Source: Pseudomonadota bacterium (GTDB lineage Bacteria; Pseudomonadota; Gammaproteobacteria; Steroidobacterales; Steroidobacteraceae). From it: a stretch of DNA of 36,490 nucleotides. The DNA is taken from contig JANXWS010000074.1 of assembly GCA_025351005.1 (NCBI GenBank), forward strand, positions 1 through 36,490, given 5' to 3'. Numbering within the stretch: the stretch's first letter is position 1; every line of letters starts with the position of its first letter. The position numbers were made by a program, and so were the translations under genes. Below the pieces are notes generated by a model. It ran no database searches. It was given only the letters and a program-made list of their open reading frames with translations, and had not been told where the DNA came from. Positions 4,201 through 26,723 of this stretch are shown here, piece after piece.

Positions 4201-4313
4201 GCGCAGGCTCGCTCCGTGGCGGGTGGCGCCAGTGTAGCGTCAGTGTCCGCCCGGTGGCGGCCCGCGATGAAGCGGCGCGCGGATCCCGCGGCGCAGCGGG
4301 GTGATCGTCGCGA

Positions 4314-5135: not shown

Positions 5136-5139
5136 GCGG

Positions 5140-6750: not shown

Positions 6751-6929
6751 CCCGCCACGTCTCGCGGACACCGTGGGCGTTGTCAGCGTTCGTCGTGCCC
6801 ACCGATCGGCGTGACGGTCGCGGACCAGATCGGATCCGGCGCGCGTCCACCGCCGTGCCATGCATCATCGCGACCCCTGCAAGTGGCCCGGCTGGGCCCG
6901 CCCACCTGCGCCCAACATCGGATTTACCG

Positions 6930-6961
6930 GACGCCGAGAGTATATAGGGTGACGCCGAGAG
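6930..6961. repeat. 11-bp direct repeat flanking the -10 box
   Basis: GACGCCGAGAG occurs at 6930-6940 and again at 6951-6961, so the copies begin 21 bp apart, close to two helical turns. One copy lies in the promoter spacer and the other just downstream of the -10 box. Same-face direct repeats at this position are typical of a binding site for a dimeric regulator. No regulator can be named. Confidence 0.45.
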
Positions 6962-6969
6962 CATTGAAA
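6941..6969 (-). promoter_or_regulatory. Sigma-70-like promoter for the kinase operon
   Basis: Read on the reverse strand, TTTCAA (6969-6964) and TATATA (6946-6941) are separated by exactly 17 bp, in otherwise very GC-rich DNA. It faces the kinase gene, and transcription would begin about 185 bp before the preferred start codon at 6750. The -35 box matches TTGACA at only three of six positions, so some activation may be needed. Confidence 0.5.
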
Positions 6970-7216
6970 GAGCAGTATTTTCAGCTCCGGCAACGAGTCG
7001 AACGACCTCGCTCGCGGCGTCGCGACCCCGCCCCACCGCCGTTCCATCCGACCGGCGGTCGGCGCGGGTCGGCCCGCATCCGGATGGAACCCGACTCGAG
7101 GGCGAGCGTCTGCTCGCGTGCCCCGTCGCAAGCCCGTGCCCAGCCTCGGCTCCGGCGTCGCCGCGGTGGCGAGCGGCCGTGAGGAATCCTGACCGATCGG
7201 CAAGCACGAGCACACC

Positions 7217-7242
7217 ATCGGCGCCGGCGCGCCGGCGCCGAT
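7217..7242. repeat. 26-bp perfect palindrome
   Basis: An uninterrupted self-complementary sequence of 26 bp, centred at 7229/7230, built around repeated GGCGCC/GCCGGC blocks with AT at both ends. It lies in the divergent intergenic region about 270 bp before the autotransporter start. It could be an operator or a cruciform-forming site. In GC-rich DNA shorter palindromes are common, but 26 bp without a mismatch is notable. Confidence 0.5.
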
Positions 7243-7513
7243 CGAACGACGCAGGGGCGGCGGACCAGACGCTGATTGGCACTCGCGAAGTTCGACTGCC
7301 AAGCGACTGCAGCGCGACGTTGCCCCGGCCGGCGTCGAATTCTCCGAACACCGCCCGCGAGGGGCTGTGCTATAAATTCGGCAAAATAAAGGGGCCGATC
7401 GTGGCGCGCGGAGCGCTACAAGCCGACAACCCACAGAATGCAACCGGCACTGCGGAGAGCTGGTGGTCGGGCTGGGAGGGGGCCGTCCATATTCGCTTGC
7501 AGGGGAGTTTGCC

Positions 7514-8995
7514 GTGCTCACAGCGATACCCGGTTTCCGCTGCGGCCGGCGAGTCAGCGGCGCAGTGTCGCGCTCGGGCAATAGGGGGGCGAGACCCCTT
7601 GGCTGGCTCGCATTGGCGAGTTTCCTGTCGGTACTGCCCGCCCCAACGCTGGCGCAGGCCGCGGCTGGTCCGCCCAAGCCGACCCCCAATCAGGCGGCGA
7701 TGGCCGCTCTCGTCGCCCGCACCTGCACCGCGCTGGCGGGGCAATCGGTCGGAGCCGGCGACCTTACGGCCGCCCAGCAGGATCTGCTGCAGCGCTGCAG
7801 CGTCCTCACGAGCGCCGCGACGGCGCCAACGGTCCTGACGGCCGCGTACAACGCGATTCTCGGCCAGCAGGTCAACGCGCTCGGACCGCAGACGAGGCAA
7901 TTCGCGACGCTTGGGCAGGACAATCTGACCGCGCGGCTCGCGGAACTCCGCCGCGGCCAGCAGGGTGTGAGCCTCGCCGGGCTCGCGCTCACCGACGCGG
8001 CCGGCCGCGACCTGATCGCCGGGCAGACCGGCACGGGGGCCCTGTTGCCGGGCGGCGCCAGCGGCGATTCGAGTGGCGGACTGCTCGACGGCAAGCTCGG
8101 CATTTTCCTCAATGGCAACCTGGCCGTTGGTTCAAACGCTCAGTCGCTGAACAGCTTTGCCTTCGGCGTCTCCGGAAATTCTCTGACGCTCGGCGCCGAC
8201 TATCGCATCGGCGAGCGCTTTGTGGTCGGTGGCGCCATCGGATCGGGCCGCACCAAAACGGATTTCGGCGACGCGCTCGGCCGCGTCGACCTCGATTCGA
8301 CCGGCGTCAGCGCGTTCGCATCGTATTACCGGCAGCGTTTCTACCTGGACCTGCTAGCCGGTGTCGGTCGCCCGAAGGTCGACCTGCAGCGGCACATCAA
8401 TTACACCGAGATGCCGGGCACGCCGGGCGCCATCGTCATCGACCAGCGGACGCATGGTACGACGCATTCGCAGGAGGCCTGGACGGGCCTCAGCACCGGT
8501 TGGGATTTCCACTGGAGCGCGCTGTCCGTGACGCCGGAGCTTTCGCTGAATTTCCACCAGAACCGCCTCGATGGCTTCCGCGAGACCGTGTCGCAGCCAC
8601 TGGCGCCCGGCGCAGGCCTCGCACTCGCCTTCGATCCCGTCACGGTGTCGTCGTTGCAGGGGCGCGCGGGAGTCCGGGTGGCTTACGTGTTCAGTACGCC
8701 GTGGGGCGTACTGGTGCCCAATGCCCACGCCAGTTACATTCGCGAGTTCCACGACTCTGCGGACGCTTTTGCCGTCCGTTACGCGGACTCCGCGACGCTG
8801 GGATCGCCGGCCGACCAGCCGGCGCTGATTCACTCGGACGCGCCCGAGGGCCACTACACGGCGAACGGCGGCGGCTTCGTGGCGCAGTTCTCCCACGGAA
8901 TTTCAGGGTTTGCGGACTACGAGCAGCTGCGGAGCCTGCAGACGATCAAAAAGCATGAGTTCGGCTTCGGCCTGCGTTATCAGGGCTCTTTCTAG
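7514..8995 (+). CDS. Autotransporter-type outer-membrane beta-barrel protein with short passenger
   Basis: 493 residues from GTG 7514. This start was chosen because AGGGGAG (7501-7507) sits six bases upstream; the frame is open further left without such a site. The N-terminus has a signal peptide with a long basic n-region, hydrophobic core LGWLALASFLSVLPAP and likely cleavage after TLAQA. Residues about 55-190 are mostly helical with two Cys. From about 205 onward the sequence is a classic autotransporter barrel: alternating strands, DYRIGERFVVGGAIG, and the end FGFGLRYQGSF with C-terminal Phe. The passenger is only about 130 residues and shows no protease or adhesin motif, so this may be a free-standing barrel. 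It is followed after 98 bp by the caspase-fold gene. Confidence 0.85.
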   Translation: MLTAIPGFRCGRRVSGAVSRSGNRGARPLGWLALASFLSVLPAPTLAQAAAGPPKPTPNQAAMAALVARTCTALAGQSVGAGDLTAAQQDLLQRCSVLTSAATAPTVLTAAYNAILGQQVNALGPQTRQFATLGQDNLTARLAELRRGQQGVSLAGLALTDAAGRDLIAGQTGTGALLPGGASGDSSGGLLDGKLGIFLNGNLAVGSNAQSLNSFAFGVSGNSLTLGADYRIGERFVVGGAIGSGRTKTDFGDALGRVDLDSTGVSAFASYYRQRFYLDLLAGVGRPKVDLQRHINYTEMPGTPGAIVIDQRTHGTTHSQEAWTGLSTGWDFHWSALSVTPELSLNFHQNRLDGFRETVSQPLAPGAGLALAFDPVTVSSLQGRAGVRVAYVFSTPWGVLVPNAHASYIREFHDSADAFAVRYADSATLGSPADQPALIHSDAPEGHYTANGGGFVAQFSHGISGFADYEQLRSLQTIKKHEFGFGLRYQGSF

Positions 8996-9093
8996 TCCGG
9001 CGCAGATGCCGGGCGCCGCCGACCGCGCCGCCGGCGGCGGGTAACCGGCGGTCCGACTCGGCACTCGAGCGTCGCAAGGAGGGGGTAACGCAG

Positions 9094-11592
9094 GTGGCCA
9101 ATGCATCGACTGCAACGCGATCTGACGAGCCAGGACGAACCGGTTCGCGGACCGGCTCGCGCCTCATCGGCGTAGTCGGCGGCACTGTCCTGGCGCTGCT
9201 GGCCGGCGCCACCGTACCGCCCGCCGCCGACTCCGCATATCTCGACCCGGACCGGCTGCTGGTTGTCGACTGCGCGCTGCCACCGCAGCTGCGAAGTCTC
9301 GGCGGCGCGATGAAGTATCTCGGCCCGCGGCGCGCGGTGCGCACGACGGTAAGCGACTGCGAGATTCGCGGCGGCGAGTACGTCGCTTACGACCGCGCCA
9401 ACTACAGCACGGCGCTGCGCGTCTGGCTGCCGCAGGCGGAAGCCGGCGACGCCCGGGCGCAGGCTTACGTCGGCGAAATCTTCGAGAAGGGGCTGGGCAC
9501 GGCGCCAGATTATGTCAAAGCGGCAGAGTGGTACGAGAAAGCGGCGAAGCAGGAGGATCGCCAGGCGCTCGCGAATCTCGGCTATCTCTACGAGCAGGGG
9601 CTCGGCGTGCCGAAAGACGCGTTGCGCGCCATGAACCTGTACCGGCGGGCGGCGGGGCTCACCGGCGAGGATCTGACCTTCGTGTCCGAGGTCGCCAAGG
9701 TCCGTGCCGAGGCCCAGACCAAGCTCGACGAGGCGTCCGCCGAGCTCGAGGCGTCGAACCAGGCCGTCACAGGATTGCAGTCTGAACTCGGACGCACGCA
9801 GGCAGAACTCGAGCGCACCCGCACCGGCGCCGACGCCGCGCGCGGTGAAGCGACCGCACTGCGCAACCGCATTGCGCTGCTGCTGCGGGACGGCGCGAGA
9901 GTCGATCATTCCGCCGAGCTCCGCGAATTACACATCAAGCTGAGCACCAGCGAATCACTGCTGCTGACACGCCAGCAAGAGCTGAGCGAGCTTCAGGGCA
10001 CGTCCAACACCGCCGCGCGCCAACTTCAGGCGCAGCTCGACGCGTCCGAGCGCAATGCCGCCCAGCTCCGCGCCCAGCTGACCTCGGCGACGAGCGGCGC
10101 GCAGGAGGCCAAGCTGCAGCTTGCGGCGGCCGAGGCCAAGCTCAACCTCACGACCCAGGAGCGTCAGAAGCTCAAGGACGACGTCGGAGCCAAGCAACGC
10201 GCGCTCAAGGAGGAAGCGGGGCGTCTCGTCCAGGCCGACAAGATCGAGCAGGCGGCGGCGGAGGCAGAGTCGCAGCGCACGCACGCAGCGCTCGCGGACA
10301 AGGACGCCGAGCGCCAGCAGCAACAATTGACGATTGCCGGACTGGACAAGCAGGTCGGGGACCTGAAGGCTGAGATCGAGCGATTGCGACGCACGGCCAG
10401 CGAAGCGGCCAGCCGTGCCGACAGCAGCCGCAAGGCGGAGCAACAAGGCGCCGAGTCGTCCACGGCCATGCGAGCGACACTCGCGACGGCGCAAGCGCTG
10501 ACGCTGCGCAGGGAGCAGGAGCTCGCTGCTGCCGCAGCGGCTCTCGAAGCGATGCGGCGGGATCTGGCGCAGGACCGCGCCACGCTGGCAACGACGCTGC
10601 GCGACAGTACGGCGAAGCAGGGCGAGATGAGCGCCACTGTCGCGCGCCTCAACCAGGCGATCGGCGATCGTGACGCGAATATCATCGCGGGCCAGGCCGA
10701 GATCGCGGGTCTGCAGAAGGAGCTTGAGCTCCGCAAGCAGGCCATGGTCCAGCCGCAGACACGCGGCGGCGCCATCGGTGCGCCGCCGCCGCTGCCGGCC
10801 GACGCGTCGACGTGGGGGAGCAGGTTCGATGCCGGCGTGAACTACGCGCTGATCATCGCCAACTACGAGTACGCCCATTTCCCTGTGCTGAAGACCGTCC
10901 GGCAGGACGCGGACGGCATCGAGAAGGTGCTGGTCGAGCGCTACGGGTACAAGGGACATACGCGTCTGCTGGCGAACGCCAATCGCAAGGCGATCATGAA
11001 TGCGCTGATGGATCTCGCGCGATCAACCCACGAGCGCGACAGCGTCGTCATCTATTTCGCCGGGCATGGCGCGCTCGACGAGACGGGAACGCACGGGTTC
11101 TGGCTGCCGGTCGACGCCGAGCCGGGCAATCCCACCGAGTGGGTGTCCGACCGCGCGATCACCGATCTCATCGCGATGATGAACGCGCGACATATACTCG
11201 TCATCGCCGATTCCTGTTACGCCGGTACAATGACCCGGCCCGCCAACGTGCGGCTCGTCAGCAAGGCGCCGAGCGCCGACGACAAGCGCCTCAACGTCCT
11301 GGCGAAGCTCCGGTCCCGTACCGTGCTGACGGCCGGCGGCATCGAGCCGGTGCTCGATTCGGACGGCGGTGACCATTCGATCTTCGCGCGCGCGCTGCTC
11401 GGTGCGTTGTGGCAGAACAATCGGGTGCTCGAGGGTGTCACGCTCTTCGGCGCCGTCTACTCGCCGGTGCAGGCGGCGGCATCGCATGCCGGCCGGATGG
11501 CGGGGACGCCGATGACGCAGACCCCGGGCTACTCCGTCCTCGCGGACGCCGGTCACCAGAATGGGGACTTTCTGCTCATCCCAGCGACCTGA
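9094..11592 (+). CDS. Sel1 repeat / coiled-coil / caspase-fold (peptidase C14-like) protein
   Basis: 832 residues from GTG 9094, with AAGGAGG 12 bases before it. A hydrophobic segment at about residues 24-48 could be a signal peptide or an N-terminal anchor. Sel1-like repeats follow at about 105-190 (GEIFEKGLGTAPDYVKAAEWYEKAA). A very long Ala/Gln/Glu/Arg coiled coil spans about 200-555. The C-terminal 260 residues are a caspase-like domain: strand VVIYFAGHG with catalytic His658 and ILVIADSCYAG with catalytic Cys708, so the dyad is intact. It belongs among bacterial metacaspase-like (orthocaspase) proteins. The substrate is unknown. Family members range from regulated proteases to proteins with structural roles. 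It may be co-transcribed with the barrel upstream; the flavoprotein gene follows after 152 bp. Confidence 0.88.
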   Translation: MANASTATRSDEPGRTGSRTGSRLIGVVGGTVLALLAGATVPPAADSAYLDPDRLLVVDCALPPQLRSLGGAMKYLGPRRAVRTTVSDCEIRGGEYVAYDRANYSTALRVWLPQAEAGDARAQAYVGEIFEKGLGTAPDYVKAAEWYEKAAKQEDRQALANLGYLYEQGLGVPKDALRAMNLYRRAAGLTGEDLTFVSEVAKVRAEAQTKLDEASAELEASNQAVTGLQSELGRTQAELERTRTGADAARGEATALRNRIALLLRDGARVDHSAELRELHIKLSTSESLLLTRQQELSELQGTSNTAARQLQAQLDASERNAAQLRAQLTSATSGAQEAKLQLAAAEAKLNLTTQERQKLKDDVGAKQRALKEEAGRLVQADKIEQAAAEAESQRTHAALADKDAERQQQQLTIAGLDKQVGDLKAEIERLRRTASEAASRADSSRKAEQQGAESSTAMRATLATAQALTLRREQELAAAAAALEAMRRDLAQDRATLATTLRDSTAKQGEMSATVARLNQAIGDRDANIIAGQAEIAGLQKELELRKQAMVQPQTRGGAIGAPPPLPADASTWGSRFDAGVNYALIIANYEYAHFPVLKTVRQDADGIEKVLVERYGYKGHTRLLANANRKAIMNALMDLARSTHERDSVVIYFAGHGALDETGTHGFWLPVDAEPGNPTEWVSDRAITDLIAMMNARHILVIADSCYAGTMTRPANVRLVSKAPSADDKRLNVLAKLRSRTVLTAGGIEPVLDSDGGDHSIFARALLGALWQNNRVLEGVTLFGAVYSPVQAAASHAGRMAGTPMTQTPGYSVLADAGHQNGDFLLIPAT

Positions 11593-11744
11593 CCGGCGCG
11601 TTGCGGAGCTGCGGTGGCGGGCCGCGCCGTTGACGACGGCACGGCGTGCGCGCCGCAGGACGGTGGGGGGGCGCTGTGTGTCGCAGCGCATCCGGATGCG
11701 GTCAGCCTAACGTGGATCAGAATGCCGGAGGCGGTGCACAGGGC

Positions 11745-14288
11745 ATGGAGATCGGTCACTTCCGGACGGTGATTGTCGGTGCGGGCCCGGCCGGCCTGAG
11801 CGCCGCCGCCCGTGCCGCCGCGATCGACGCGGACAACCGCACGACGGCCCCGAGCTACGTGCTGCTCGAAGGCTTCGCGCTGCCCGCCAAGACCATCCAG
11901 CGCTACCAGAAGGGCAAGCATGTGATGGCGGAGCCGGGCTACCTTGCGCTGCGCAGCGATTTCGGCTTCGCGGCCGGTCGTCGCGAGGTGGTGCTCGAGG
12001 GCTGGGTCAAGGACCTCGAGCAGCGCAAGGTCAACGTCCGCTTCAGCAGCGAGGTGATGACGATCAGCGGCAGCTCGGGACGGTTCACGCTCGGGCTGTC
12101 CTCCGGCGATTCGCTGTCGGCCGAGGCCGTGGTGCTCGCGATCGGTCTCGGCGGCAACCCGCGGCGCCTGAACGTGCCCGGCGAGGACCGGCCGCAGGTC
12201 CAGTACCAGCTCGACGACCCGGGCGCGTACCGGGACGAAAGCATCCTCGTTGTCGGCGCCGGCGACGCGGCAATCGAGAATGCGCTTGCGCTCGCCGGCC
12301 ACAACGCGGTGACGATCATCAACCGCGGCGCCGAGTTCAGCCGCGCCAAGGACGGCAATCTGCGCGACGTGCTGGCGGCGCTCAACGACCCCAAGCGGCG
12401 CGTGCAGTGCCTGTACCAGGCGCGGATCAAGAGCGTTGCGGCAGCTACCGGTGAGGGCGGGCCGCTCGAGGTGACGGTCGAGACGGCCGGCGGCGAGAGC
12501 CGCGGCAACTACCACCGGATCATCGCCCGGCTCGGCGCTGAGCCGCCGCGCAAGTTCCTCGAGTCGATGGGCATCCGCTTTCCGAACGAGCGCACGGATT
12601 CGGTGCCCGAGCTCAGCGCCCAGTACGAGAGCAACGTGCCCGGCATCTACATCGTGGGTTCGCTGGCGGGCGCTTCGCTGATCAAGCAGGGAATGAACCA
12701 GGGCTACGACGTCATCGAGTTCATCAACGGTCGCAACATCGATCCCGCCGATCATCCGCTGCTCGCGTGCCGGTTCCAGGGCTTGCCGTTCCAGCGGCCG
12801 GTAGAGGAGTCGCTGCAGCGACTGAAGACCGTCGTTCCGATGTTCACGGGGATTAACGCGCTGGTATTTCGGGAGCTGATCATCGAGAGCGACGTCGTCG
12901 TCGCCTACCCGGCCGGCGCCGCCTACGACCAGGCGAAGCGCAAGCTCACCGAACTGACCGCGGCCGACCCGTCGGGGCGCGCGGCGGAACGCGCGACCCG
13001 CGTCGTTCGGGAAGGGGACGTGATCTACGAGGCAGGTGACTTCAGCACCTCGTTCCTGACCATCGTGCACGGCGAGGTACGGCTCGAGTCGCCGGAGAGT
13101 GCCGTGCCGACCGTGCTGGAACGAGGCGACTTCTGCGGCGAGCTTAGTCTGCTGTCGGGCCGGCCGCGCCTCGACCGCGCGATCGCCGGGCGCGGCTGCG
13201 TATTGGTCGAGACCCCGCGGCGCATCATGCTGAAGCTGATGAACTCGAACGAGGAGGTCCGCAAGGAGATCGATCTGATGTTTCTGGCGCGGGAACTGCA
13301 GCGTCAGTTCGCGCCGCGGGCGAGCGTGGGCCGCATGAAGGAGATCGCGGCGCGCCTGACGCTGCGCCGCTACAAGGCGGGCGAGCGGATCGTGACCGAG
13401 GGCGAGGCCGGGGCGAGTCTGTTCGTCGTGCGCTCGGGCGGCGCGGCCCTCTTTCGCGGTGGCAATGGCGCAGCCACGCTCGTCAGTCACGTCCAGGCCG
13501 GACAGCGCTTCGGCGAGACCGCGGTGATGGGCGATCCGGTGCGGCGCGAGACGGCCGATGCGGTCGTCGCGACGGAGCTGATCGAGATCGGCAGCAGCGA
13601 TTTTCTGCAGCTCGTCGAACTCGGCGGCAGCCAGGTCAAGAACCTTCAGCAGCGCGTCAGCGAGCAGGTGCGGGAGTCGGCGCGCATGGGGGTGCTGCCC
13701 GACGCCGGTTCGGTGCTGGCGTTCATGATGCGCGAGGGCCTCGGCGAAGCGACCAACGTGCTGGTCATCGACGAGACGCGCTGCACGGGCTGCGACAACT
13801 GCGAGCGTGCCTGCGCCGAGACCCACGGCGGCGTGTCACGGCTTGACCGCCGCGCGGGCGCGAGCTTCGCACAGGTCCACATTCCGGTGGCATGCCGGCA
13901 CTGCGAGAGTCCGCATTGCATGAAGGACTGCCCGCCGAACGCGATCCGGCGGGCCGAATCCGGCGAGGTGTTCATCGACGAAAGCTGCATCGGCTGCGGC
14001 AACTGCCAGCTGAACTGCCCGTACGGTGTCATCAAGATGGCCTACGAGGCGCCGCGCAAGCCGAGCCTGCTCAGCTGGCTGGCGCTCGGCCGCGGACCGG
14101 GGCCCGGCGAGCAGAAGGACTACCGGCCGAGCGCCGCCGCCAAGGCGATCGGTGCCAAGGCCAAGAAGTGCGACGCCTGCATCGGCCTGCCGTCGGGTCC
14201 GGCCTGCGTCCAGGCGTGCCCGACCGGCGCCGCGCAGCGCATCGGGCCCGCGGAGTTCGCGGCGCTGGCTACCGAGCGACAGCAGTGA
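11745..14288 (+). CDS. FAD/NAD(P) oxidoreductase fused to two cNMP-binding domains and a four-cluster ferredoxin module
   Basis: 847 residues from ATG 11745, chosen for the GGAGGCGG site at 11727-11734 and because the FAD motif begins at once. Residues about 5-310 are a thioredoxin-reductase-like flavoprotein: FAD-binding VIVGAGPAGLSAAAR, a second Rossmann motif ILVVGAGDAAIENAL near 166, and closing segment VPGIYIVGSLAG. No CxxC redox disulfide is visible. Two CAP-like cNMP domains follow (about 415-500 and 535-625). The C-terminus (about 683-833) carries sixteen Cys in four groups, CTGCDNC, CRHCESPHC, CIGCGNC and CDACIGLPSGPAC, as in the iron-sulfur subunits of DMSO-reductase or Hyb-type complexes. 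It probably passes electrons between NAD(P)H and the membrane partner encoded next (GTGA overlap), under ligand control through the cNMP domains. Confidence 0.9.
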   Translation: MEIGHFRTVIVGAGPAGLSAAARAAAIDADNRTTAPSYVLLEGFALPAKTIQRYQKGKHVMAEPGYLALRSDFGFAAGRREVVLEGWVKDLEQRKVNVRFSSEVMTISGSSGRFTLGLSSGDSLSAEAVVLAIGLGGNPRRLNVPGEDRPQVQYQLDDPGAYRDESILVVGAGDAAIENALALAGHNAVTIINRGAEFSRAKDGNLRDVLAALNDPKRRVQCLYQARIKSVAAATGEGGPLEVTVETAGGESRGNYHRIIARLGAEPPRKFLESMGIRFPNERTDSVPELSAQYESNVPGIYIVGSLAGASLIKQGMNQGYDVIEFINGRNIDPADHPLLACRFQGLPFQRPVEESLQRLKTVVPMFTGINALVFRELIIESDVVVAYPAGAAYDQAKRKLTELTAADPSGRAAERATRVVREGDVIYEAGDFSTSFLTIVHGEVRLESPESAVPTVLERGDFCGELSLLSGRPRLDRAIAGRGCVLVETPRRIMLKLMNSNEEVRKEIDLMFLARELQRQFAPRASVGRMKEIAARLTLRRYKAGERIVTEGEAGASLFVVRSGGAALFRGGNGAATLVSHVQAGQRFGETAVMGDPVRRETADAVVATELIEIGSSDFLQLVELGGSQVKNLQQRVSEQVRESARMGVLPDAGSVLAFMMREGLGEATNVLVIDETRCTGCDNCERACAETHGGVSRLDRRAGASFAQVHIPVACRHCESPHCMKDCPPNAIRRAESGEVFIDESCIGCGNCQLNCPYGVIKMAYEAPRKPSLLSWLALGRGPGPGEQKDYRPSAAAKAIGAKAKKCDACIGLPSGPACVQACPTGAAQRIGPAEFAALATERQQ

Positions 14289-15178
14289 TCTTCACCGGAA
14301 TTCTGAGCTATCGCGGCTACCGATACTTGTGGTGGTCGCTGGGTCTGTCGACGTTCGCAGTGCTGCTGTTCGCGAGCCAGTACGCCTCGGACACGGCGCG
14401 CGGCAACACCTGGCAGGGCTACACGCTCGGTTCCATCGCCGGCACCGGCGTGCTGTGGCTCGGCTATCTCGGCGTGCGCAAGCGCCGCTATGCGGCGGGC
14501 GGCGCGCCGATGCTCGGCTGGTCGTCGGCGCACGTGTATCTCGGACTGGCCGTGTTCCTGGTCGCGACGCTGCATTCCGTCGCCCACCTGAGCTTCACGA
14601 TTCACGGCATGACCTATCTGCTGCTCACGGTCGTCATCATCAGTGGCATCGTCGGCGTCTACCTGTACCTGACGTGCCCGCGAGCGACCGCCGACAACCG
14701 CCAGGGCGTGTCGCGCGCCCAGCTGTTCGCCGAGTTGCTCGATCTCGACCGCCGCGCCCGCGAACTGGCGCGTCGCTGCGATCCGCGCGTCGCAGCCGCG
14801 GTTCGCAGCGCCGTGGAGCGCACCGTGATCGGTGGCGGTGCGCTAGCGCAGCTGACGGGCGCGGATCGGTCGCTGTTCCTCGACCCGGACCGGCCGGGAC
14901 CCGCGGGCGAACCGACGCTCGCGTCAAACGCCGAGCAGCGCGCCATCACGGAGTTCGTGTCGTCGCGCATTCCGCGCGGCGACAAGCGCGCCGAGGTCGC
15001 TACGCTGCAGCAGCTGCTGCCGATCCTGTTCCGGCGCCAGGCGGTTCTGCGGCGAATACGCCGCGACATCCAGCTGCAATCGTTCCTGGAGTTCTGGCTG
15101 TACGTGCATGTGCCGCTCAGCGTCGGGCTGATCGCCGCGCTGCTGACTCACGTCGTGTCGGTATTTCTGTACTGGTAG
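14285..15178 (+). CDS. Five-helix b-type cytochrome-like membrane protein (module A)
   Basis: 297 residues. GTG 14285 overlaps the preceding stop, which fixes the start. There are four hydrophobic helices in the first half and one at the C-terminus (FWLYVHVPLSVGLIAALLTHV), separated by a soluble loop of about 130 residues. Helix 3 (SSAHVYLGLAVFLVATLHSV) and the last helix each carry two or more His spaced to ligate hemes, as in cytochrome b561 or ferric-reductase-type proteins. Between the cytoplasmic FeS-flavoprotein and the periplasmic decaheme protein it is well placed to carry electrons across the inner membrane. The protein encoded at 29462-30340 has the same layout and shares an SGxVGxYLY signature at the end of helix 4, so the two are paralogues. 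Confidence 0.8.
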   Translation: MIFTGILSYRGYRYLWWSLGLSTFAVLLFASQYASDTARGNTWQGYTLGSIAGTGVLWLGYLGVRKRRYAAGGAPMLGWSSAHVYLGLAVFLVATLHSVAHLSFTIHGMTYLLLTVVIISGIVGVYLYLTCPRATADNRQGVSRAQLFAELLDLDRRARELARRCDPRVAAAVRSAVERTVIGGGALAQLTGADRSLFLDPDRPGPAGEPTLASNAEQRAITEFVSSRIPRGDKRAEVATLQQLLPILFRRQAVLRRIRRDIQLQSFLEFWLYVHVPLSVGLIAALLTHVVSVFLYW

Positions 15179-15181
15179 CGC

Positions 15182-16879
15182 ATGAACGCGTTGCTCCGGT
15201 ATGTGCGGGATGGCCTGGACGGGCAGCCGGAAACGACGGATGTCGAGGTCCAGGTCGAGGAACTGACGGTCGGCAGCGCATCGCGGGCGACGTTGCAGCT
15301 GATCGGCCGCGACCTGCGTCCCGAGCACGCGGTATTGCGGCTGCGCAACGGGCGGCTGTGGCTCACGGCGAGCGGTCCGGCAATCGAGGTCAACGGCAGC
15401 GCGGTCGAGTCGGCGCCACTTGCGACCGACGACCTGATCGTGATGGGTGGCCACAGGATCCGGGTACTCGACCCGCCGAGCGGCTTCGACGCCGCGCTTG
15501 AAGTACGCCTGGACCCGGACGTCAACCCGAGTGACTTCGAGACCGCCTTCACGACCGCGCTCGGCCGCACGCGGCTGTCGAAACGCGCACCGGCGTGGCT
15601 GCTGCTCGGCATGGTACTCGCCCTTGGCATGGGGCTGCCGCTGACCAACGTGCTGTTGCGGCACACGGGTGGCCACCCGCCCGCCTGGTTGCCCGGTGAC
15701 GCGGTCTGGTCGACCGGACCGCTGATTCCGACCCACGAACTCGCCTCGCACGGCCAGTGCTCGGTCTGCCATGCGACACTATTCGAGCGCGTGACCGACA
15801 AGAGCTGTCGCAAATGCCACGATCACGAACAGGACCACGTGCGCCTCGACGGCGAACAGCATGCGGCTGCGGAGCCGACGCCGCGTTGCGCCGGTTGTCA
15901 CCGCGAGCACTACGCCGACACGATGCATTTCGTGCCGCGCGCGGACAGTCTGTGCACCGATTGCCATCGCCAACCGAAGGCGCTGACCGGCCGGCGCCCG
16001 ATCGCGGGCGTGACGTCGTTCGCCAAGGATCGCCACCCGGAGTTCATCCTCAAGCTGCTCCGGCCGGAACCGGGCAGCGGCGCGTCGGCGGGCGGGGTCA
16101 CGTGGCGCGACGCACTGGTGCCGATCGGCTCTGCCCAGGAACAGTCGAACCTCTCGTTCTCGCACGTCCAGCATCTCGACCCGGCGAAGGTCACGCGCGT
16201 CGGCGGCGATGCGCCGCTCGGCTGCGCGGATTGTCATACGCTCTCGGTCGACGGCGCCCATTTTCAGCCGATCACGATGCTGGGCAAGTGCCTCAGCTGT
16301 CACTCGCTAGAGTTCGCGCGCGGGCGGCAGCTGCCGCACGGCCAGACCGCCGAGGCGGTGACCATCCTCGAGGACTTCTACGTCCGGAATTTCTCCGGCC
16401 CGCCGTTGCCCGAGCCGCAGCGGGTGAGGCGGCTGCCGGATCGCGGGGCGCCGCCGCCGGCCTGCACGGGCAAGCCCTATGATTGCGGGATGGTTCGTGC
16501 GCGCTTCGAGGTCGAGAACCAGTTCAAGGTGCGCGGCTGCGCGGGCTGCCATACCGTCGAGGACACCGGGGCCGCGTCGCTGGCGGACCGGTTCCGGGTG
16601 GCGCCGGTGCGGCTTGCGACCGACTATTTCCACAGTGTACGGTTCTACCACCGCGACCACGTGGTGCAGCGGGAGCTCACCGGCGACCGCGCCTGCCTCT
16701 CCTGCCACCACGCCGACCGGTCGCAGCGCAGTTCCGACGTGCTCATCCCGCCAATCGCGAAGTGCCTGGAGTGTCATGCCAGCCAGGCGACCGCGGACAA
16801 GGTGGCACTACGCTGTACGAGTTGCCACGCCTATCATCCTGTGCCAGCTGGGCTCCCTGCCCTGGAAGGTCCCTCATGA
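15182..16879 (+). CDS. FHA domain - transmembrane helix - decaheme cytochrome c fusion
   Basis: 565 residues, starting 3 bp after the preceding gene. Residues about 20-100 resemble an FHA domain, with HAVLRL and EVNGSAV in the expected order. The phosphothreonine-contacting Arg and Ser appear replaced (VGSASRA and LRPEHA), so binding may be altered. One transmembrane helix (about 138-160) follows. The rest is periplasmic with ten CxxCH motifs from CSVCH (Cys193) to CTSCH (about 546). The N-terminus would face the cytoplasm, so the protein physically links a phospho-signalling-type domain with a multiheme electron carrier. It probably accepts electrons from the membrane cytochrome encoded just upstream. 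The stop overlaps the next start (ATGA), supporting one operon. Confidence 0.88.
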   Translation: MNALLRYVRDGLDGQPETTDVEVQVEELTVGSASRATLQLIGRDLRPEHAVLRLRNGRLWLTASGPAIEVNGSAVESAPLATDDLIVMGGHRIRVLDPPSGFDAALEVRLDPDVNPSDFETAFTTALGRTRLSKRAPAWLLLGMVLALGMGLPLTNVLLRHTGGHPPAWLPGDAVWSTGPLIPTHELASHGQCSVCHATLFERVTDKSCRKCHDHEQDHVRLDGEQHAAAEPTPRCAGCHREHYADTMHFVPRADSLCTDCHRQPKALTGRRPIAGVTSFAKDRHPEFILKLLRPEPGSGASAGGVTWRDALVPIGSAQEQSNLSFSHVQHLDPAKVTRVGGDAPLGCADCHTLSVDGAHFQPITMLGKCLSCHSLEFARGRQLPHGQTAEAVTILEDFYVRNFSGPPLPEPQRVRRLPDRGAPPPACTGKPYDCGMVRARFEVENQFKVRGCAGCHTVEDTGAASLADRFRVAPVRLATDYFHSVRFYHRDHVVQRELTGDRACLSCHHADRSQRSSDVLIPPIAKCLECHASQATADKVALRCTSCHAYHPVPAGLPALEGPS

Positions 16880-18921
16880 GCCTGCGCTTGTCGTTCCTCG
16901 CCTGCGTGGCCGCGGCATCGACCGCGGCGTGCTCCGGAAGCGCGTCCGTCCAATCGTCAGCGGGCACCGATCCGACGGCGAACTGCACCGGCCAGTGCGC
17001 GTCGAGCACGCTGTTTCTGGCCCGCGCCGATGTTGACCGGATCATCAGCCAGGGGGTCACCGAGGCGCAGGCCCGCGGCGTGGCCGCGACGATCGCGGTC
17101 GTCGACCGGGTCGGCAACGTGCTCGCCGTGTACCGCATGGGATCCGCCGCAACCCGCAAGGTGCTGATCGCAAGCCGCCGCGATGCGAGCGGCAATGCCG
17201 TGATCCACGGTGGCCTCGAGGGCATCGGCCTGCCGACGATTGCGGTAGCCGCGAACATCGACGACCAGGCGGCCATCGCCAAGGCGATCACCGGCGCCTA
17301 CCTGTCCTCGGAGGGCAACGCGTTCTCGACGCGCACGGCGAGCCAGATCGTCCAGCAGCATTTCGATCCGCAGGAGCTCGGCCAGGCGAGCGGGCCGCTG
17401 TTCGGCGTGCAGTTCAGTCAGTTGGCGTGCTCCGACTTCATGCAGGCGGCGACCGGGGCCGGGCCGGGCGTCGGGCCGCAGCGCTCGCCGCTCGGCCTGT
17501 CGGCCGATCCCGGCGGATTTCCGCTCTACAAGGGCGGCACCGTCGTCGGCGGCGTCGGCGTGCTGGCGGACGGCAGCTACTCGATCGATGGCTCGTTTCC
17601 GGGACAGGATCACGATACCGACGAGCTGATCGCGACCGCCGCCAGCCACGGCTTCGCGGCGCCGGTCGAGCGACGCGCGGACCGGATTACGGCGGGCGGC
17701 AAGCTATTGCGATTCAGCGACGCGGACGAGTCGCAACTGATGACGGATCCGGGCAAAGCGCCGTCATTCGCTGCACTGGGTCCGGGCGTCGGCAACCTGG
17801 TCACGGTGATCGGCTACGCCGACGGTGCATTGCACGATGGGGTCGCATTCGGCGATGCGAGTTCCGGCATCCGCCCCGACGCCGGCGCGGACTTTCCCGG
17901 CCGGGACGCGTTCGTGTTTGTCGACGCGAGCGGTCTGCCGCGCTTCCGGGCGCGCGCTGCGACCGACGCGTCCGTGACCGGGCCGAACGCACTGACCGCG
18001 GCCGAGGTGCTGGCCATGCTGCGGGCGGCGCTCGACGTCGCCAACCATGCGCGGGCGCAGATTCGCCAGCCCGACGGCACCGTCGCCCGGGTGACGATCG
18101 CGGTGGTCGACACCGAAGGCGCGATTCTCGGCATGGTGCGCTCGCGCGACGCGCCGTTGTTCGGTGCCGACGTGGCGCTGCAGAAAGCGCGCAGCGCGAT
18201 GTTCTTTTCGAACGCCGCGGGCGCCGGGCTGCTCGCCTCACTGCCCGATGCGCAGTACCTGACCGTCACCGACGTGGGCGCGACCCTGAGCCCGGCACCG
18301 ATCGGCCCGTACGTGCCGAGGCTGCAGGCGTTTGTCGGCAATCCAACCGCGCTCGCCGATGGCGGGGTCGCCTACTCGGTCCGCGCGATCGGCAACCTGG
18401 CGCGGCCGCTTTATCCGGATGGCATAGACGGCCGGCCGGCCGGCCCGCTCAGCAAGCCCGCGGGGGCGTGGAGCGTGTTCTCGACTGGATTGCAGCTCGA
18501 CCTGTCCTACAACGCAGTGCTGCAGCACGTGCTGTTCGTCGCCGGTGTGGTGCCCGCGGACGTGAGTCCCGGCTGCCCGGGCGTCAGTCTGTCGCTGAGT
18601 CCGCTGTCGGTGACCAAGGCGACCGCCGACCTGTGGATGGGCAACGGCTTGCAGATATTTCCGGGCGGCGTGCCAGTGTATCGCAACGCGGTACTGGTCG
18701 GCGGCATCGGCGTCTCCGGTGACGGCGTCGACCAGGACGACATGATCGCTTTCCTCGGTCTCAATAACGCGGGACTGACACTCGCCTCCGGGGTCGGCAA
18801 CGCGCCTGCCGCGCGGCGCGCTGACACGTTGACGCCGCAAGGCGTGCGCCTCCGCTATGTCCAGTGCCCACAATCGCCGTTCGTCGATAGTGATTCCCAA
18901 CACGCGTGCGACGGTCTATGA
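16876..18921 (+). CDS. Lipoprotein with two GlcG/HbpS-like (heme-binding) domains
   Basis: 681 residues from ATG 16876, overlapping the previous stop by four bases. The signal peptide has lipobox STAAC (Cys at about 19). The first domain begins LFLARADVDRIISQGVTEAQ and continues with TIAVVDRVGNVLAVYRM, the signature of the GlcG/HbpS/PduO-C family. A second, more diverged unit starts near residue 372 (VTIAVVDTEGAILGMVRS) and ends with GGVPVYRNAVLVGGIGVSG. Family members such as Streptomyces HbpS bind heme and sense redox stress. Embedded among cytochrome genes, this lipoprotein may bind heme or act as a redox sensor or assembly factor in the periplasm or at a membrane. Members of this length with two copies are less usual than single-domain ones of about 140 residues. 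Confidence 0.8.
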   Translation: MSLRLSFLACVAAASTAACSGSASVQSSAGTDPTANCTGQCASSTLFLARADVDRIISQGVTEAQARGVAATIAVVDRVGNVLAVYRMGSAATRKVLIASRRDASGNAVIHGGLEGIGLPTIAVAANIDDQAAIAKAITGAYLSSEGNAFSTRTASQIVQQHFDPQELGQASGPLFGVQFSQLACSDFMQAATGAGPGVGPQRSPLGLSADPGGFPLYKGGTVVGGVGVLADGSYSIDGSFPGQDHDTDELIATAASHGFAAPVERRADRITAGGKLLRFSDADESQLMTDPGKAPSFAALGPGVGNLVTVIGYADGALHDGVAFGDASSGIRPDAGADFPGRDAFVFVDASGLPRFRARAATDASVTGPNALTAAEVLAMLRAALDVANHARAQIRQPDGTVARVTIAVVDTEGAILGMVRSRDAPLFGADVALQKARSAMFFSNAAGAGLLASLPDAQYLTVTDVGATLSPAPIGPYVPRLQAFVGNPTALADGGVAYSVRAIGNLARPLYPDGIDGRPAGPLSKPAGAWSVFSTGLQLDLSYNAVLQHVLFVAGVVPADVSPGCPGVSLSLSPLSVTKATADLWMGNGLQIFPGGVPVYRNAVLVGGIGVSGDGVDQDDMIAFLGLNNAGLTLASGVGNAPAARRADTLTPQGVRLRYVQCPQSPFVDSDSQHACDGL

Positions 18922-20789
18922 ACGCCAGGGGAGCTTCGGTGGGTACCAAAAAGCTCGCGGCACGAATCGGTCTGCTGCTGATCGCCGTCGTGGCGGTGAC
19001 TGCGATCGCCAACGCGGAAACCTGTTATCGCGACGACAAGGGCCGGATCGTGACGCGGCGCAGGCCAGGCTACGTCGAGGTTCCCTGCCCGGTGCCCGGC
19101 GCTCCGACCGCTGCCGGGTCGCCGGAGGCGAGCGCCGCGAACGCGGCGCCCGGCGCGGGGCCGGCGGGCCCGGACCGTTCGCCGCCGAGCCGGGTATCGC
19201 CGTTGCCGAGGCCGACGCTCAGCGACTACGCGGCCTCGGTCGCAGTTCCTGACCGCTGGCGCATCGTAGACGCGCTCGGCTATCCCGAGCAGCGGGTCGA
19301 TCCCTACAACCGCAACCTGCTGAAGGCGGACCGGCCGGTTCACGGCGATTGGTTCTTCAATCTCAGCGCGTTGTCCGACACCGTATTCGAGAGCCGACAG
19401 GTCCCGACACCGGTCGGCAGCCAGTCGACAACCGGCCCGGGGAGCCTCGACGTGTTCGGGCGGAACCGCCAGACGCTGCTCTCGCAGACGATCGCGACCG
19501 AGTTCGTCTACTACAAGGGCGACACTGTCTTCCAGCCACCGGACTACGAGTTCCGGTTCGCGCCGGTATTCAACGTCAATCACAACCGGGCCGAAGAGCT
19601 CGACGCGCTGTACGTCGACCCCGCCCGTGGCCGGGTGCGCAACGATTCATTTTTCGGTGTCCAGGCGCTGTTCGCCGACAAGCATCTCAGAAACGTGTCC
19701 GAGCGCTTCGACTTCGATTCGCTGCGCGTCGGCATCCAGCCGTTCTCGAGCGATTTCCGCGGTTTCCTGTTCCAGGACGACCAGCTGGGCGCACGCCTGT
19801 TCGGGACGCGCGCCAACAACCGCTACCAATACAACCTGGCGTACTTCCGCCGGATCGAGAAGGACACCAACAGCGGCCTCAACGACCTGACGCAGCCGCT
19901 GCGGCACGATGACGTGCTGATTGCCAATCTCTACCGCCAGGACACGCTGGTCGACGGCTTCACGGCGCAGGCGACCATCGCCTACAACCGCAATCGCGAG
20001 GACCGCGGTACGCACTACGACAAGAATGGCGTGCTGGTGCGGCCGGCCGCCGCGGGCGTCGAGAGCCCGTTTCACTACGACGTCGTCTACCTCGGCCTCA
20101 ACGGTGACGGCCACTTCGGTAGCACCAATCTGACGTCGTCGTTCTATTCGGCGATCGGCCGCGCCGAGCGCGGCCTGCTGGTGCCGTCGGCGGTCGATAT
20201 TCGCGCCTTTTTCGGCGCCGCCGAACTCTCCAGGGATTTCGACTGGCTGCGGCCGCGACTATCGCTGCTGTATGCGACGGGCAGCCGGCATCCGTACGGG
20301 AACAAGGCGACCGGCTTCGATGCGATTCTCGAAAATCCGCAGTTTGCGGGTGCGGATTCCAGCTACTGGATCCGGCAGGCCCTGCCGCTGGTCGGTGGTG
20401 GTGGCGTGACGCTGTCGACTCGCAACGGCGTGCTCAACGACCTGCGCTCGTCGAAGGACGAAGGCCAGTCCAACTTCGTCAATCCCGGCACGCTGCTGGC
20501 CGGAATCGGCGCCGACGCCGATCTGCTGCCGACGCTGCGGGCCTCGGTCAACGTCAATTCCGTCTATTTCGACGATACGGCGGTGCTCGAGGCGCTGCGG
20601 AACCAGGGCGGCATCGACCGGCACATCGGCTACGACGTGTCGCTGTCGCTCGTCTACCGTCCGTTGATGTCGCAGAACATCGTCGCCCGTGCATCCTATG
20701 CGCGGCTGATCCCAGGCGCAGGCTTCAAGGCGCTGTTCCCGAATCAGCAACCGAGTTACGTCCTTCTGAACGTCATCCTGGCGTACTAG
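18918..20789 (+). CDS. Outer-membrane beta-barrel protein of the cytochrome cluster
   Basis: 623 residues from ATG 18918 (ATGA overlap). A GTG at 18939 has a better AGGGGAG site six bases upstream and gives a cleaner signal peptide beginning GTKKLAARIG, so it may be the true start. After the signal peptide comes a short Cys-containing segment (ETCYRDDKGRIV) and a Pro/Ala linker. About 500 residues of amphipathic strands follow, rich in Tyr, Phe, Asn and Asp, ending in YVLLNVILAY with a terminal aromatic. The length fits a large barrel. It lies between heme-protein genes, so it is the best candidate for the outer-membrane partner of the multiheme proteins, analogous to but not recognisably homologous with MtrB. 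It shows no N-terminal CxxC as in MtrB. Confidence 0.75.
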   Translation: MNARGASVGTKKLAARIGLLLIAVVAVTAIANAETCYRDDKGRIVTRRRPGYVEVPCPVPGAPTAAGSPEASAANAAPGAGPAGPDRSPPSRVSPLPRPTLSDYAASVAVPDRWRIVDALGYPEQRVDPYNRNLLKADRPVHGDWFFNLSALSDTVFESRQVPTPVGSQSTTGPGSLDVFGRNRQTLLSQTIATEFVYYKGDTVFQPPDYEFRFAPVFNVNHNRAEELDALYVDPARGRVRNDSFFGVQALFADKHLRNVSERFDFDSLRVGIQPFSSDFRGFLFQDDQLGARLFGTRANNRYQYNLAYFRRIEKDTNSGLNDLTQPLRHDDVLIANLYRQDTLVDGFTAQATIAYNRNREDRGTHYDKNGVLVRPAAAGVESPFHYDVVYLGLNGDGHFGSTNLTSSFYSAIGRAERGLLVPSAVDIRAFFGAAELSRDFDWLRPRLSLLYATGSRHPYGNKATGFDAILENPQFAGADSSYWIRQALPLVGGGGVTLSTRNGVLNDLRSSKDEGQSNFVNPGTLLAGIGADADLLPTLRASVNVNSVYFDDTAVLEALRNQGGIDRHIGYDVSLSLVYRPLMSQNIVARASYARLIPGAGFKALFPNQQPSYVLLNVILAY

Positions 20790-20803
20790 AGAGCACCCAC
20801 GAC

Positions 20804-23800
20804 ATGGACGCTTCACGTGGTTTGAGCCGGCGCCCGACGATCATGCCGCTGCTTGGTTTGAGCGCGATCGTCGCGGCGGCCATCTGGTCCCCTTGCGGGT
20901 CGGCGGCAAACGGCAAGCTGGCTGCGGCTGCGCCGCGGGCGGAGGAGAGTAGGCCGGCGCCGGCCCTGCAGAGTGCCGAGGACAGCGCCCGCAAGAGCGC
21001 GGGCTGCCTCGGCTGCCACACGCAGACGGACGCTGCGACGATGCACGCAAGCTCGGCCGTGCAGCTCGGCTGCAGCGACTGCCATGGCGGTCACCCTGAG
21101 GTCACGCTGCCGGTAGGGACCGCGCCGGCGTCGCCCGCCTACCGCCAGACGCAGGACGCAGCGCACGTGCAGCCGCGTTACCCGGACGAGTGGCACTACC
21201 CGTCGAGCGCCAACCCGCAGCGCACCTACACGCTGCTGAATCGGGAGACCGCCGCGTTCATCCGCTTCATCAATCCGTCCGACTACCGGGTTGCGAGGGA
21301 ATCCTGCGGGGCGTGCCACCTGGACGTCATCGAGCAGTCGGTGCGCAGCCTGCACGCGACCGGCGCGATGTTGTGGGGCGGCGCCTCGTACAACAACGGC
21401 ATCCTGCCGTTCAAGCCGTCGATCCTCGGCGAGTCCTACACCGCCGACGGCGTAGGCACCGTGCTGAAGGGGCCGCGCATCCCGGCCGAATACCAGGCCG
21501 CGGCGCGAAGCGCCGGCATCCTGCCGGAACTGAATCCGCTGCCCGCATGGGAGACGGTCAAGCCGGGCGACATCTTCCGCGTCTTCGAGCGCGGCGGGCG
21601 CAACATCGGCAATCTGTTCCCGGAGACGGGCTTGCCCGACGCGAACGGCAAGCTCGAGCGTATCGAAGAGCCGGGCCGGCCGGATTTCCGGCAGTCGAAC
21701 CGTGGCCCCGGCACCGGCGCCCGGATTGCCGTGCCGATCATCAATCTCACCAAGACGCGGCTCAATGACCCGTTGCTGTGGTTCATGGGGACCAACGATC
21801 AGCCGGGCGACTACCGCCAGTCCGGCTGCGCCGGCTGCCACGTGGTCTATTCCAATGACCGCGACCCGAAGCATTCCGGGCCGTACGCGGCCTTCGGCCA
21901 CGACGGCCGGTCGCAGAGCGCGGACCCGACGATTCGCCGCGACGAGTCGGGGCACCCGCTGACGCACAGCTTCACCCGCAGCATTCCGACGAGCCAGTGC
22001 ATGGTCTGCCACATGCACCAGCCGAACATGTTCATGAACACGTTCATGGGCTACACGATGTGGGACTACGAGTCCGACGCGCCGTCCATGTGGCCCGAGC
22101 GGCAGCAGTACCCGTCGATCGCCGAGACATGGGCCGTGCTCGAGCGCAATCCCGAAGGCGCCGCGCAACGCGGCAAGTGGGCGGACGTCAATTTCCTCGG
22201 CAAGGTTGCTGATCTCAACCCGACGCTGAAGGACACCCAGTTCGCCGACTACCACGGGCACGGCTGGAACTTTCGGGCGGTGTTCAAGCGCAATCGCCAC
22301 GGCGATCTGCTCGACGCCGTCGGCACGGTCGTTCGCGACGATGACCCGGGCAAGTTCCAGAAGGCCGTGCACCTCGCGTCGATACACATGGACAAGGGCA
22401 TGCACTGCGTCGACTGCCACTACTCGCAGGACAACCACGGCAGCGGCTACATCTACGGCGAGGTCGCCGCGGCAGTCGAGATCGATTGCAAGGACTGCCA
22501 CGGGTCGGTGCGCAACTACCCGAATCTCTACACCTCCGGGCCCGCGGCGCTCGGCGGCGGCGCCGACCTGACGTTGCTGCGCACGCCGGACGGGCGGCGC
22601 CGCTTCGAATGGGTCGACGGCGCGCTCTACCAGCGCTCGATGCTCGACCCCGACCGGGAATGGAAGGTCAGCCTCGTGAAGGACACGGTGACGCCGGGGC
22701 GACCGGAGTTCAACGAGAAGGCGGCGCGCGCCAAGCTGATGGGCCGCGACGTGGCGTCGCTCAGGTGGGGCGCGAACGTCCCCGACGAGCGGCTGGCTCA
22801 CGGCGACTCGTCGATGGAGTGCTATGCCTGCCACACGTCCTGGACGACGAGCTGCGGCGGATGCCACCTGCCGATCGAGGCCAACTGGAAGACCGACCGC
22901 AAACACTTCGAGGGCGGTACGACGCGCAACTACGCGACCTACAACCCGCAGGTCGCGCGTGACGACATGTTCCTGCTCGGCCACCGCGACTCGAGCAAGG
23001 GCGGGAAGATTGCGCCCACGCGCTCGAGCTCCGCGCTCGTGCTGTCGTCGACCAACTCCAGCCGCGAGCACATTTACGTGCAGCAGGCACCGATCTCGGC
23101 GGCCGGATTCAGCTCGCAGGCGTTCAATCCGCACTATCCTCACACCGAGCGCACCGCCGAGACCAAGACCTGCGAGGACTGCCACCTGTCGCAGGCCAAT
23201 GACAACAATGCGATCCTGTCGCAGCTCTTCATGTTCGGCACCAATTTCGTCAACCTGCTCGGCTACCACGCCTACCTCGGCGGCGCCGGCGAGATCGCCG
23301 CCGTCACGGTCACCGAGTGGGATGAGCCGCAGGCCGTGATCGGAAGCTACCTGCACCGCTACGCCTACCCCGACTGGTATGCGGCGCACGAGCAGCGTGG
23401 CCGCAAGCTCGCGCAAGGCTTCGAGCACGCCGCCGGCGTGGCCAAGTGCCTGCAGCTGCGTGGCGAGTACCTGTACGTCGCCGAGGCCAGCCGCGGGCTG
23501 CGGGTCTACGACGTGGCCAGCGTCGGCAACAAGGGAGTTTCGCAGCCGCTGATCACGGCGCCATTCAGCCCGCTCGGCCACGACACGCGGGTGCGCACGG
23601 CCGACGCCACCTGCGTGGCGCTGCCGACCAATCAGCCGATCAACCCGCTGCGTAACGCGAACGCCAGCCTGCGGGCCGACAACCAGGAATCCGCGATGCA
23701 CCCGCTGTATCGCTACGCTTTCGTCACCGACGCCAAGGAAGGGCTGATCCTGACGGACGTGACGACGCTGGCCGACGGCGAGCCGCGGAACAACTTCCTG

Positions 23801-24586: not shown

Positions 24587-24599
24587 GGCCGCGGCTGCC

Positions 24600-25898: not shown

Positions 25899-25900
25899 CC

Positions 25901-26641: not shown

Positions 26642-26723
26642 CCAGCGACCACGCGGGTGCGTCCGCCGCCAACCGGGGCCGGCCGAGAGGCCGCGAGCCC
26701 CGCCCCCGCGAGCGGTTGGCCAC

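Follow-up and report, generated by a model that had tools for sequence, protein, structure and literature searches.

A forkhead-associated domain tethered to a decaheme cytochrome c in a conserved seven-gene locus, a candidate trans-envelope electron conduit

Introduction

To our knowledge, it is little understood how bacteria switch on or dock electron chains that cross the cell envelope. The question is raised by a protein encoded in a 36,490-nucleotide stretch of contig JANXWS010000074.1 from a Steroidobacteraceae genome (assembly GCA_025351005.1), the whole of which is referred to here as the window. In this protein a forkhead-associated (FHA) domain is joined through a membrane helix to a decaheme cytochrome c. 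A previous sequence-only reading saw in the fusion a direct way for Ser/Thr phosphorylation to control or recruit an electron-transfer chain, and offered the binding of a non-phosphorylated partner as a fallback. What, then, does an FHA domain do on the end of a multiheme cytochrome, and to which electron chain does it belong?

Results and Discussion

The FHA-decaheme protein

The open reading frame of the FHA-decaheme protein starts 3 bases past the stop codon of the upstream gene (Table 1), and its ATG encodes a methionine, M1, that is invariant in a 60-member alignment (A4). Ten CxxCH motifs are found at residues 193, 209, 236, 258, 348, 370, 453, 505, 528 and 545, the number counted in the sequence-only reading. 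Shuffling the protein 2000 times gave a mean of 0.043 such motifs and a maximum of 1, which, together with the invariant M1, rules out chance motifs or a mis-called reading frame. The full set of ten is present in 74 of the 79 family members; the exceptions are L096 and L097 (nine each, at contig ends), L099 (seven, in a broken frame), and L137 and L138 (nine each). Ten histidines outside the motifs are likewise invariant in the 60 rows of A4 (H185, H219, H243, H285, H328, H331, H386, H490, H493 and H552), and we infer that they are the distal ligands of bis-His hemes. The CxxCH motifs, the putative distal histidines and the predicted export of this part mark the protein as a multiheme c-type cytochrome, with heme attachment as a prediction.

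All of the eight 19-residue windows with the highest hydrophobicity begin within residues 135–142, and the AlphaFold2 model of the protein displays a helix at residues 135–161, in agreement with the single transmembrane helix proposed before. Lys and Arg residues are more numerous in the 15 residues before the helix than after it in 72 of the 79 members, equal in seven and fewer in none. Given this charge bias, a cytoplasmic FHA domain and ten periplasmic hemes are expected, which is the topology anticipated by the sequence-only reading. The opposite arrangement, with the N-terminus in the periplasm, is disfavoured, as no second hydrophobic stretch appears among the best windows and the charges point to an N-in orientation.

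Table 1. Position of the locus genes and associated features within the window
Feature	Position	Strand	Remarks
Flavoprotein	11646..14288	+	TrxR/YpdA-like FAD domain, two cyclic-nucleotide (cNMP)-binding domains, C-terminal 4Fe-4S clusters
Inner-membrane protein	14285..15178	+	297 aa; two WX3HX13H and SGXXG, a di-heme b signature (PMC5566968)
FHA-TM-decaheme cytochrome c	15182..16879	+	565 aa; FHA 1-110, TM 135-161, ten hemes 185-552
HbpS-like protein (PF03928)	16876..18921	+	681 aa; lipoprotein-like N-terminus by eye
Outer-membrane beta-barrel	18906..20789	+	About 18 long strands in the model; best Foldseek match AlgE
Decaheme cytochrome with C-terminal LVIVD repeats	20804..24586	+	1260 aa
Cytochrome c554-like protein	24525..25898	+	Pentaheme: four CxxCH and one conserved CX4CH
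PP2C phosphatase	25901..26641	+	2 bases past the c554-like gene; same place in the closest relative (L057/L128)
Double-FHA protein	26724..27575	+	First domain with GR / SRxHA / NGT; same place in L128
Ser/Thr protein kinase	5140..6861	-	In the inserted block
25.5-kb block	2365..27916		Absent from four same-genus genomes

Fold and eroded pocket of the FHA domain

The Pfam FHA model (PF00498) matches residues 29–89 of the window protein with 21.2 bits against a gathering score of 20.7, and with 25.0 bits in the genome search. The family profile, covering residues 23–103, matches GarA in the PDB at 9.3e-9, and 58 of the 62 members of alignment A3 have an FHA match at E≤0.01 (best 4.9e-10). Alignments A3 and A4 omit L096, L097 and L099, which are cut or broken, and L061, which has no FHA domain; A4 additionally omits L010 and L011. 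In the AlphaFold2 model, residues 1–110 form a block of eleven strands, an FHA beta sandwich, with pLDDT values of 91–98. The comparison of the predicted N-terminal domain with FHA structures, proposed in the sequence-only reading as a check, was run with Foldseek: all 44 matches at E≤0.001 are FHA proteins, most of them by title; a few whose titles do not say so, Slr1951, TIFA, CEP170 and EmbR, are known members of the FHA group. The FHA-like fold is thus confirmed, and the family profile and the predicted fold rule out a marginal Pfam artefact.

In the alignment with GarA, the positions of the pocket Arg and Ser are occupied by S32 and R46 of the window protein, and the position of the pocket Asn (about residue 67) is not Asn either. 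These three positions are presumably the ones that contact phosphothreonine, and the window protein has none of the corresponding residues; the suspected substitution of the Arg and Ser was correct and extends to the Asn. Among the 78 FHA-bearing members, Gly31 is kept in all, Arg32 in 73 and His49 in 74; Ser46 occurs in five. Asn at position 67 was found in 3 of 66 members, a count taken from the first, 66-member alignment, since column 67 is aligned differently in the 79-member alignment, and in none of the 25 members found without an Arg-holding pattern. The pattern used for scanning named genomes held GRATD and favours members with the pocket Arg; among the 25 members collected independently of it, the Arg is present in 19 of 24.

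On a tree of the cytochrome part, from which L099 was left out, the members without Arg32 fall into two groups. The first comprises the window protein, on a long end branch, with L057 and L058 (support 99), and the second L062 and L063. Next to the window group branches the FHA-less L061 (support 91), and at least three changes are needed to account for the losses of the Arg or of the domain. A gap of 19 bases separates the cytochrome gene of L061 from the gene before it, and the rest of the locus is complete. With five Arg-less members among 78 and one member devoid of the domain, electron flow cannot depend on it. So the FHA domain is ancient and conserved, though not as a canonical phosphothreonine reader, and the putative electron transfer can do without it.

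Canonical phosphothreonine reading by the domain is therefore not supported by these sequences. The claim that it reads Ser/Thr phosphorylation is likewise unsupported, as nearly all members lack the Ser and Asn, the Arg is missing here and in four others, and L061 lacks the whole domain; the fallback of a putative non-phosphorylated partner fits better. The same erosion, and the FHA-less L061, would also suit a domain that is a structural relic or an assembly element, as in YscD-type proteins, and that oligomerises the cytochrome without a regulatory role. The Pfam family Yop-YscD_cpl matches 54 of 62 members at E≤0.01, but it stays below its gathering score in the window protein. Moreover, the conservation of Gly31 and Arg32 argues for a kept binding face in most members, and the domain persists in 78 of 79 members across two classes. 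We consider the relic or assembly explanation improbable.

Occurrence of the family

The search for homologues with the same fusion, which the sequence-only reading had suggested, yielded 79 members from Gammaproteobacteria and Alphaproteobacteria, all but one with an FHA region. The first alignment contained 66 non-redundant members from 71 loci, and the 79 were aligned later. Among 59 genomes related to that of the window, 7 encode a full-length relative; so do 16 of 369 genomes of the class, at E below 1e-120 and counting the window's own genome and the FHA-less G313, and 15 of 398 genomes of the phylum, own genome included. Further relatives comprise 46 loci in named genomes and 12 Sphingobium plasmid records, and the host titles include Woeseiaceae, Steroidobacteraceae, Solimonas, Nevskia and Panacagrimonas. 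A single scan of viral contigs with the window protein gave no relative. The FHA-decaheme proteins share 26–41% identity with the window copy; the closest relative is L057, at 41–42%.

One genome (G170) carries two copies of the locus, L062 and L063; both lack the pocket Arg, and a cyclase gene lies about 2.5 kb from each. The locus also occurs in metagenome-assembled genomes titled Klebsiella pneumoniae or Bordetella parapertussis (L088, L092, L093 and L094). These titles look wrong, and L092–L094 group with environmental Gammaproteobacteria on the tree.

A conserved locus from cytoplasm to outer membrane

The gene of the FHA-decaheme protein is the third of a conserved seven-gene locus (Table 1), and nine window genes follow each other in series with spacings of −62 to +82 bases. 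The flavoprotein gene overlaps the next gene by 4 bases, and its true start may lie about 100 bases downstream. Neighbours were counted in 37 loci with at least 8 kb on either side, window included: the flavoprotein is present in 36, the membrane protein in 37, the HbpS-like protein in 35, the barrel in 35, the decaheme-LVIVD cytochrome in 34 and the c554-like cytochrome in 36. The HbpS, barrel and LVIVD genes are missing nearby in L059 and L107, the LVIVD and c554 genes in L018, and the flavoprotein gene in L062. In the Sphingobium loci the outer-membrane part is inverted.

The motifs of the window membrane protein lie at residues 79, 120 and 271. Two WX3HX13H motifs are present in 64 of 65 such proteins and the Ser of SGXXG in 61 of 65; three stretches of the window protein exceed a simple hydropathy cut-off for transmembrane segments, where five are expected. 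The model of the barrel has a mean pLDDT of 71.7 and matches AlgE best, at 6.8e-15. Among the 50 fold matches listed for it, the best are AlgE and Occ-type porins, and MtrB is not found.

The seven-gene set reaches from the cytoplasm to the outer membrane, from which we infer electron movement across the envelope. This wider frame, a conserved envelope-spanning locus with a cyclic-nucleotide side, was missed in the sequence-only reading. The presence of HbpS-like and c554-like proteins and the best listed barrel matches, to AlgE and Occ-type porins and not to MtrB, could instead indicate a periplasmic redox system fed by the flavoprotein, for example one that handles heme or detoxifies peroxide or nitrogen oxides, and not an extracellular conduit. 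However, the barrel and the decaheme-LVIVD cytochrome travel with the three inner-membrane genes in nearly all of the 37 loci, and the barrel, with 50–62% identity to the window copy, is better conserved than the FHA-decaheme protein. A purely periplasmic system is rather unlikely in our estimation.

A second resident electron module occupies positions 27906-32548 of the window and encodes, on the minus strand, a multiheme C7 cytochrome and a di-heme-b-type membrane protein in which WX3HX13H occurs twice and, on the plus strand, an Fe-S/FAD protein. Its cytochrome (27906-29543) is 69–79% identical within the genus and occurs in 21 of 59 relatives.

Comparison with known systems

Porin-cytochrome conduits are already known; as far as our searches of the open-licence literature go, an FHA-tethered decaheme cytochrome with a cNMP-binding flavoprotein is undescribed in function. 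He et al. (PMC5566968) report SGXXG and two WX3HX13H motifs for the inner-membrane protein of PCC3 and PCC4, likely a di-heme cytochrome b. By comparison with this description, the window locus shares a porin-type barrel, multiheme cytochromes and such a membrane protein with PCC3 and PCC4. A membrane protein of about 300 amino acids with the motifs (297 in the window) and a modelled beta-barrel porin are the PCC3-type features that it has. The cytochromes of PCC3, by contrast, have medians of 34 and 21 heme sites, whereas those of the window locus have 10, 10 and 5, so that the many-heme character of PCC3 is lacking. The main text of PMC5566968 contains none of the terms forkhead, FHA, cyclic nucleotide, ferredoxin and LVIVD. 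PCC3 clusters, which come closest among published systems, are reported in PMC8788666 to be downregulated on Fe(II) in S. lithotrophicus, and the likeness to PCC3 therefore does not point to iron oxidation.

A search of the open-licence literature for FHA together with cytochromes or electron transfer returned a single relevant paper, PMC10734462 (2023); PMC3353115 and PMC9140294 were judged unrelated, and neither PMC8788666 nor PMC12442390 contains forkhead or FHA. None of the 12 papers listed, out of 567 matching, in a search on LVIVD proteins mentions LVIVD. Table 1 of PMC10734462 names a ten-heme 'Forkhead-associated protein' (MMSeqs2 cluster 403, Gallionellaceae) from 27 of 87 iron-oxidiser genomes. 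It is placed under 'Other', and the term occurs once in the main text, undiscussed. Judged by this description, cluster 403 resembles the FHA-decaheme protein in its name and its ten heme motifs.

CymA, NapC and NrfH resemble the FHA-decaheme protein in design, with a single N-terminal helix followed by a multiheme domain in the periplasm that contacts the electron pool of the membrane. Cytochromes of that type have about four hemes and are not known to carry an FHA domain in the cytoplasm, and the NapC/NirT family is not among the Pfam matches of the window protein. The FHA fold is shared with the best fold matches, GarA and OdhI, which act by binding metabolic enzymes. GarA has a full pocket (GR, SRRHA, SLNGT) and no cytochrome, whereas the FHA-decaheme protein has other residues in place of the Arg, Ser and Asn and joins the domain to a decaheme.

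Phosphorylation and cyclic-nucleotide genes near the locus

In the window, the genes of the PP2C phosphatase and, 82 bases further, of the double-FHA protein close the operon. The two also come after the c554-like gene in the closest relative, L057, where the PP2C gene overlaps the c554-like gene by 4 bases. No locus apart from the window and L057 showed this pair in this order, and among ten loci with wide flanks L057 alone had the pair. In 5 of 57 other genomes (G068, G231, G823, G812 and G815) a PP2C gene shares the contig of the FHA-decaheme gene and is no more than 11 kb from it; PP2C genes further off, 17 kb away in G813 and 75 kb in G833, were not counted. These counts suggest that PP2C proximity is commoner than random placing would give, but not general, and they rule out PP2C or the double-FHA gene as a family-wide neighbour. 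Of the co-occurrence that the sequence-only reading had proposed to check, the PP2C part stands for a few genomes, whereas the pair is confined to the window and its closest relative. Next to the operon of the relative lies a sulfate permease (SulP-STAS) with an N-terminal FHA domain (L128:3621-5705), a further case of an FHA domain fused to a membrane protein.

The PP2C gene comes after the c554-like gene in L092 as well, and in L078 and L081 both a cyclase-FHA gene and a PP2C gene come after it. PP2C and kinase genes stand directly after the FHA-decaheme gene in L060, a kinase gene lies near the locus in L051, and another is found in the inserted block of the window. With the pocket Arg kept in most members, these neighbours would suit a phospho-switch in which the FHA domain would bind phosphothreonine on a neighbouring protein, for which a kinase substrate, the flavoprotein or the double-FHA protein are candidates, and so recruit or release the electron chain, with PP2C reversing the step. 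Against it stand the scarcity of the pocket Ser and Asn, the missing Arg of the window protein itself, and the 52 of 57 genomes without PP2C within 11 kb on the same contig, a number limited in some by contig ends. Such a switch seems unlikely.

The cyclic-nucleotide side of the locus is carried by the flavoprotein. Both cNMP cassettes retain their Gly, Glu and Arg in at least 95% of 53 flavoproteins, and the cassettes of the window flavoprotein itself are partly degenerate. Adenylate/guanylate cyclase domains were sought in 33 of the 57 genomes, which were picked after weak cyclase matches had appeared and most of which have a long contig around the locus. At least 14 of the 33 encode such a domain no more than 10 kb from the FHA-decaheme gene, against about 1 expected at random, and at least 22 encode one within 20 kb, against about 2; relatedness of the genomes is ignored in both comparisons. 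Six of seven nearby cyclase reading frames that were checked are CHASE2-cyclases and one is a GAF-PAS cyclase. The window itself showed no detectable cyclase gene. The FHA-decaheme gene of Sphingobium sp. TomMM7A is followed by a gene annotated as CpdA, a cAMP phosphodiesterase, whose counterpart in S. herbicidovorans is a calcineurin-like phosphoesterase by Pfam. The cyclase neighbours make control by cyclic nucleotide together with the FHA domain, and also the phospho-switch, somewhat likelier, and the relic explanation somewhat less so.

Many genomes have a CHASE2-adenylate/guanylate cyclase gene at a distance of a few kb from the locus, for example at L068:1578-3719. A clear cyclase-FHA protein is encoded at L153:7733-8623. 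At L055:402-1385, convergent with the FHA-decaheme gene, the cyclase domain is the only Pfam match, and a weak FHA-like domain is discerned by eye.

A candidate conduit with a cytoplasmic docking point

Taken together, we put at about an even chance the reading that the FHA-decaheme protein is the decaheme subunit of a candidate trans-envelope electron conduit and that its FHA domain is a cytoplasmic docking or control point. The protein would be the inner-membrane-anchored, periplasmic decaheme subunit. Electrons would move between the NAD(P)H or quinone pool, the flavoprotein and the b-type protein, and onward through the decaheme to the periplasmic and outer-membrane cytochromes, in one direction or the other. 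The FHA domain, with its eroded pocket, may serve as a cytoplasmic dock that holds the flavoprotein, or another regulator, at the membrane complex, and docking may couple or gate the entry of electrons. Cyclic nucleotide from cyclases that are often encoded nearby, bound by the flavoprotein, would tune the assembly, as might the PP2C, double-FHA and kinase proteins in some lineages.

We propose more tentatively, and regard as somewhat doubtful, that the conduit is a widespread and undescribed one whose inner-membrane half has two cytoplasmic inputs at once, cyclic nucleotide through the flavoprotein and the on-board FHA domain. The same caution applies to the extension of this proposal, in which CHASE2-type cyclases would be the source of the nucleotide, and the PP2C, double-FHA, cyclase-FHA and kinase genes would have been recruited into the operon or its island in some lineages. 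Were the two-input proposal true, the protein would be a multiheme electron wire with a built-in cytoplasmic control domain. Concrete handles on the control or docking of such a conduit are provided by the FHA domain at the cytoplasmic end of the decaheme and by the cNMP-binding domains of the protein with which it likely exchanges electrons, and natural variants are available with the pocket Arg kept, with the Arg lost and with the whole domain lost. If the locus does encode a conduit, it is a new candidate pathway for Woeseiaceae, Steroidobacteraceae, Nevskiaceae and Sphingobium genomes.

A probably inserted block

The operon lies within a 25.5-kb block that also contains the PP2C, double-FHA and kinase genes and those of a caspase-Sel1 protein, a patatin-cNMP protein and an autotransporter. 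Ten same-genus genomes hold the cytochrome gene at 27906-29543, and in four of them it adjoins the gene at 138-2342. In these block-free genomes, 37–118 bases separate the aligned flanks, which are 73–78% identical in DNA on both sides. The block was thus gained or lost as one unit. On the tree the window copy groups with other families, away from the copy of its own genus (L012), which favours gain of the block by transfer. A check of the block ends for insertion marks found only a 9-base direct match and 8-base inverted matches, and no mobility gene was recognised among those block reading frames, a part of the total, that were put to Pfam. The tRNA genes, at 35.8-36.2 kb, are outside the block.

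The caspase-like (Peptidase_C14) protein with Sel1 repeats (9094-11592) has a relative beside the locus in L051, and the patatin-like phospholipase (2398-4200) carries a cNMP-binding domain and is NTE-like.
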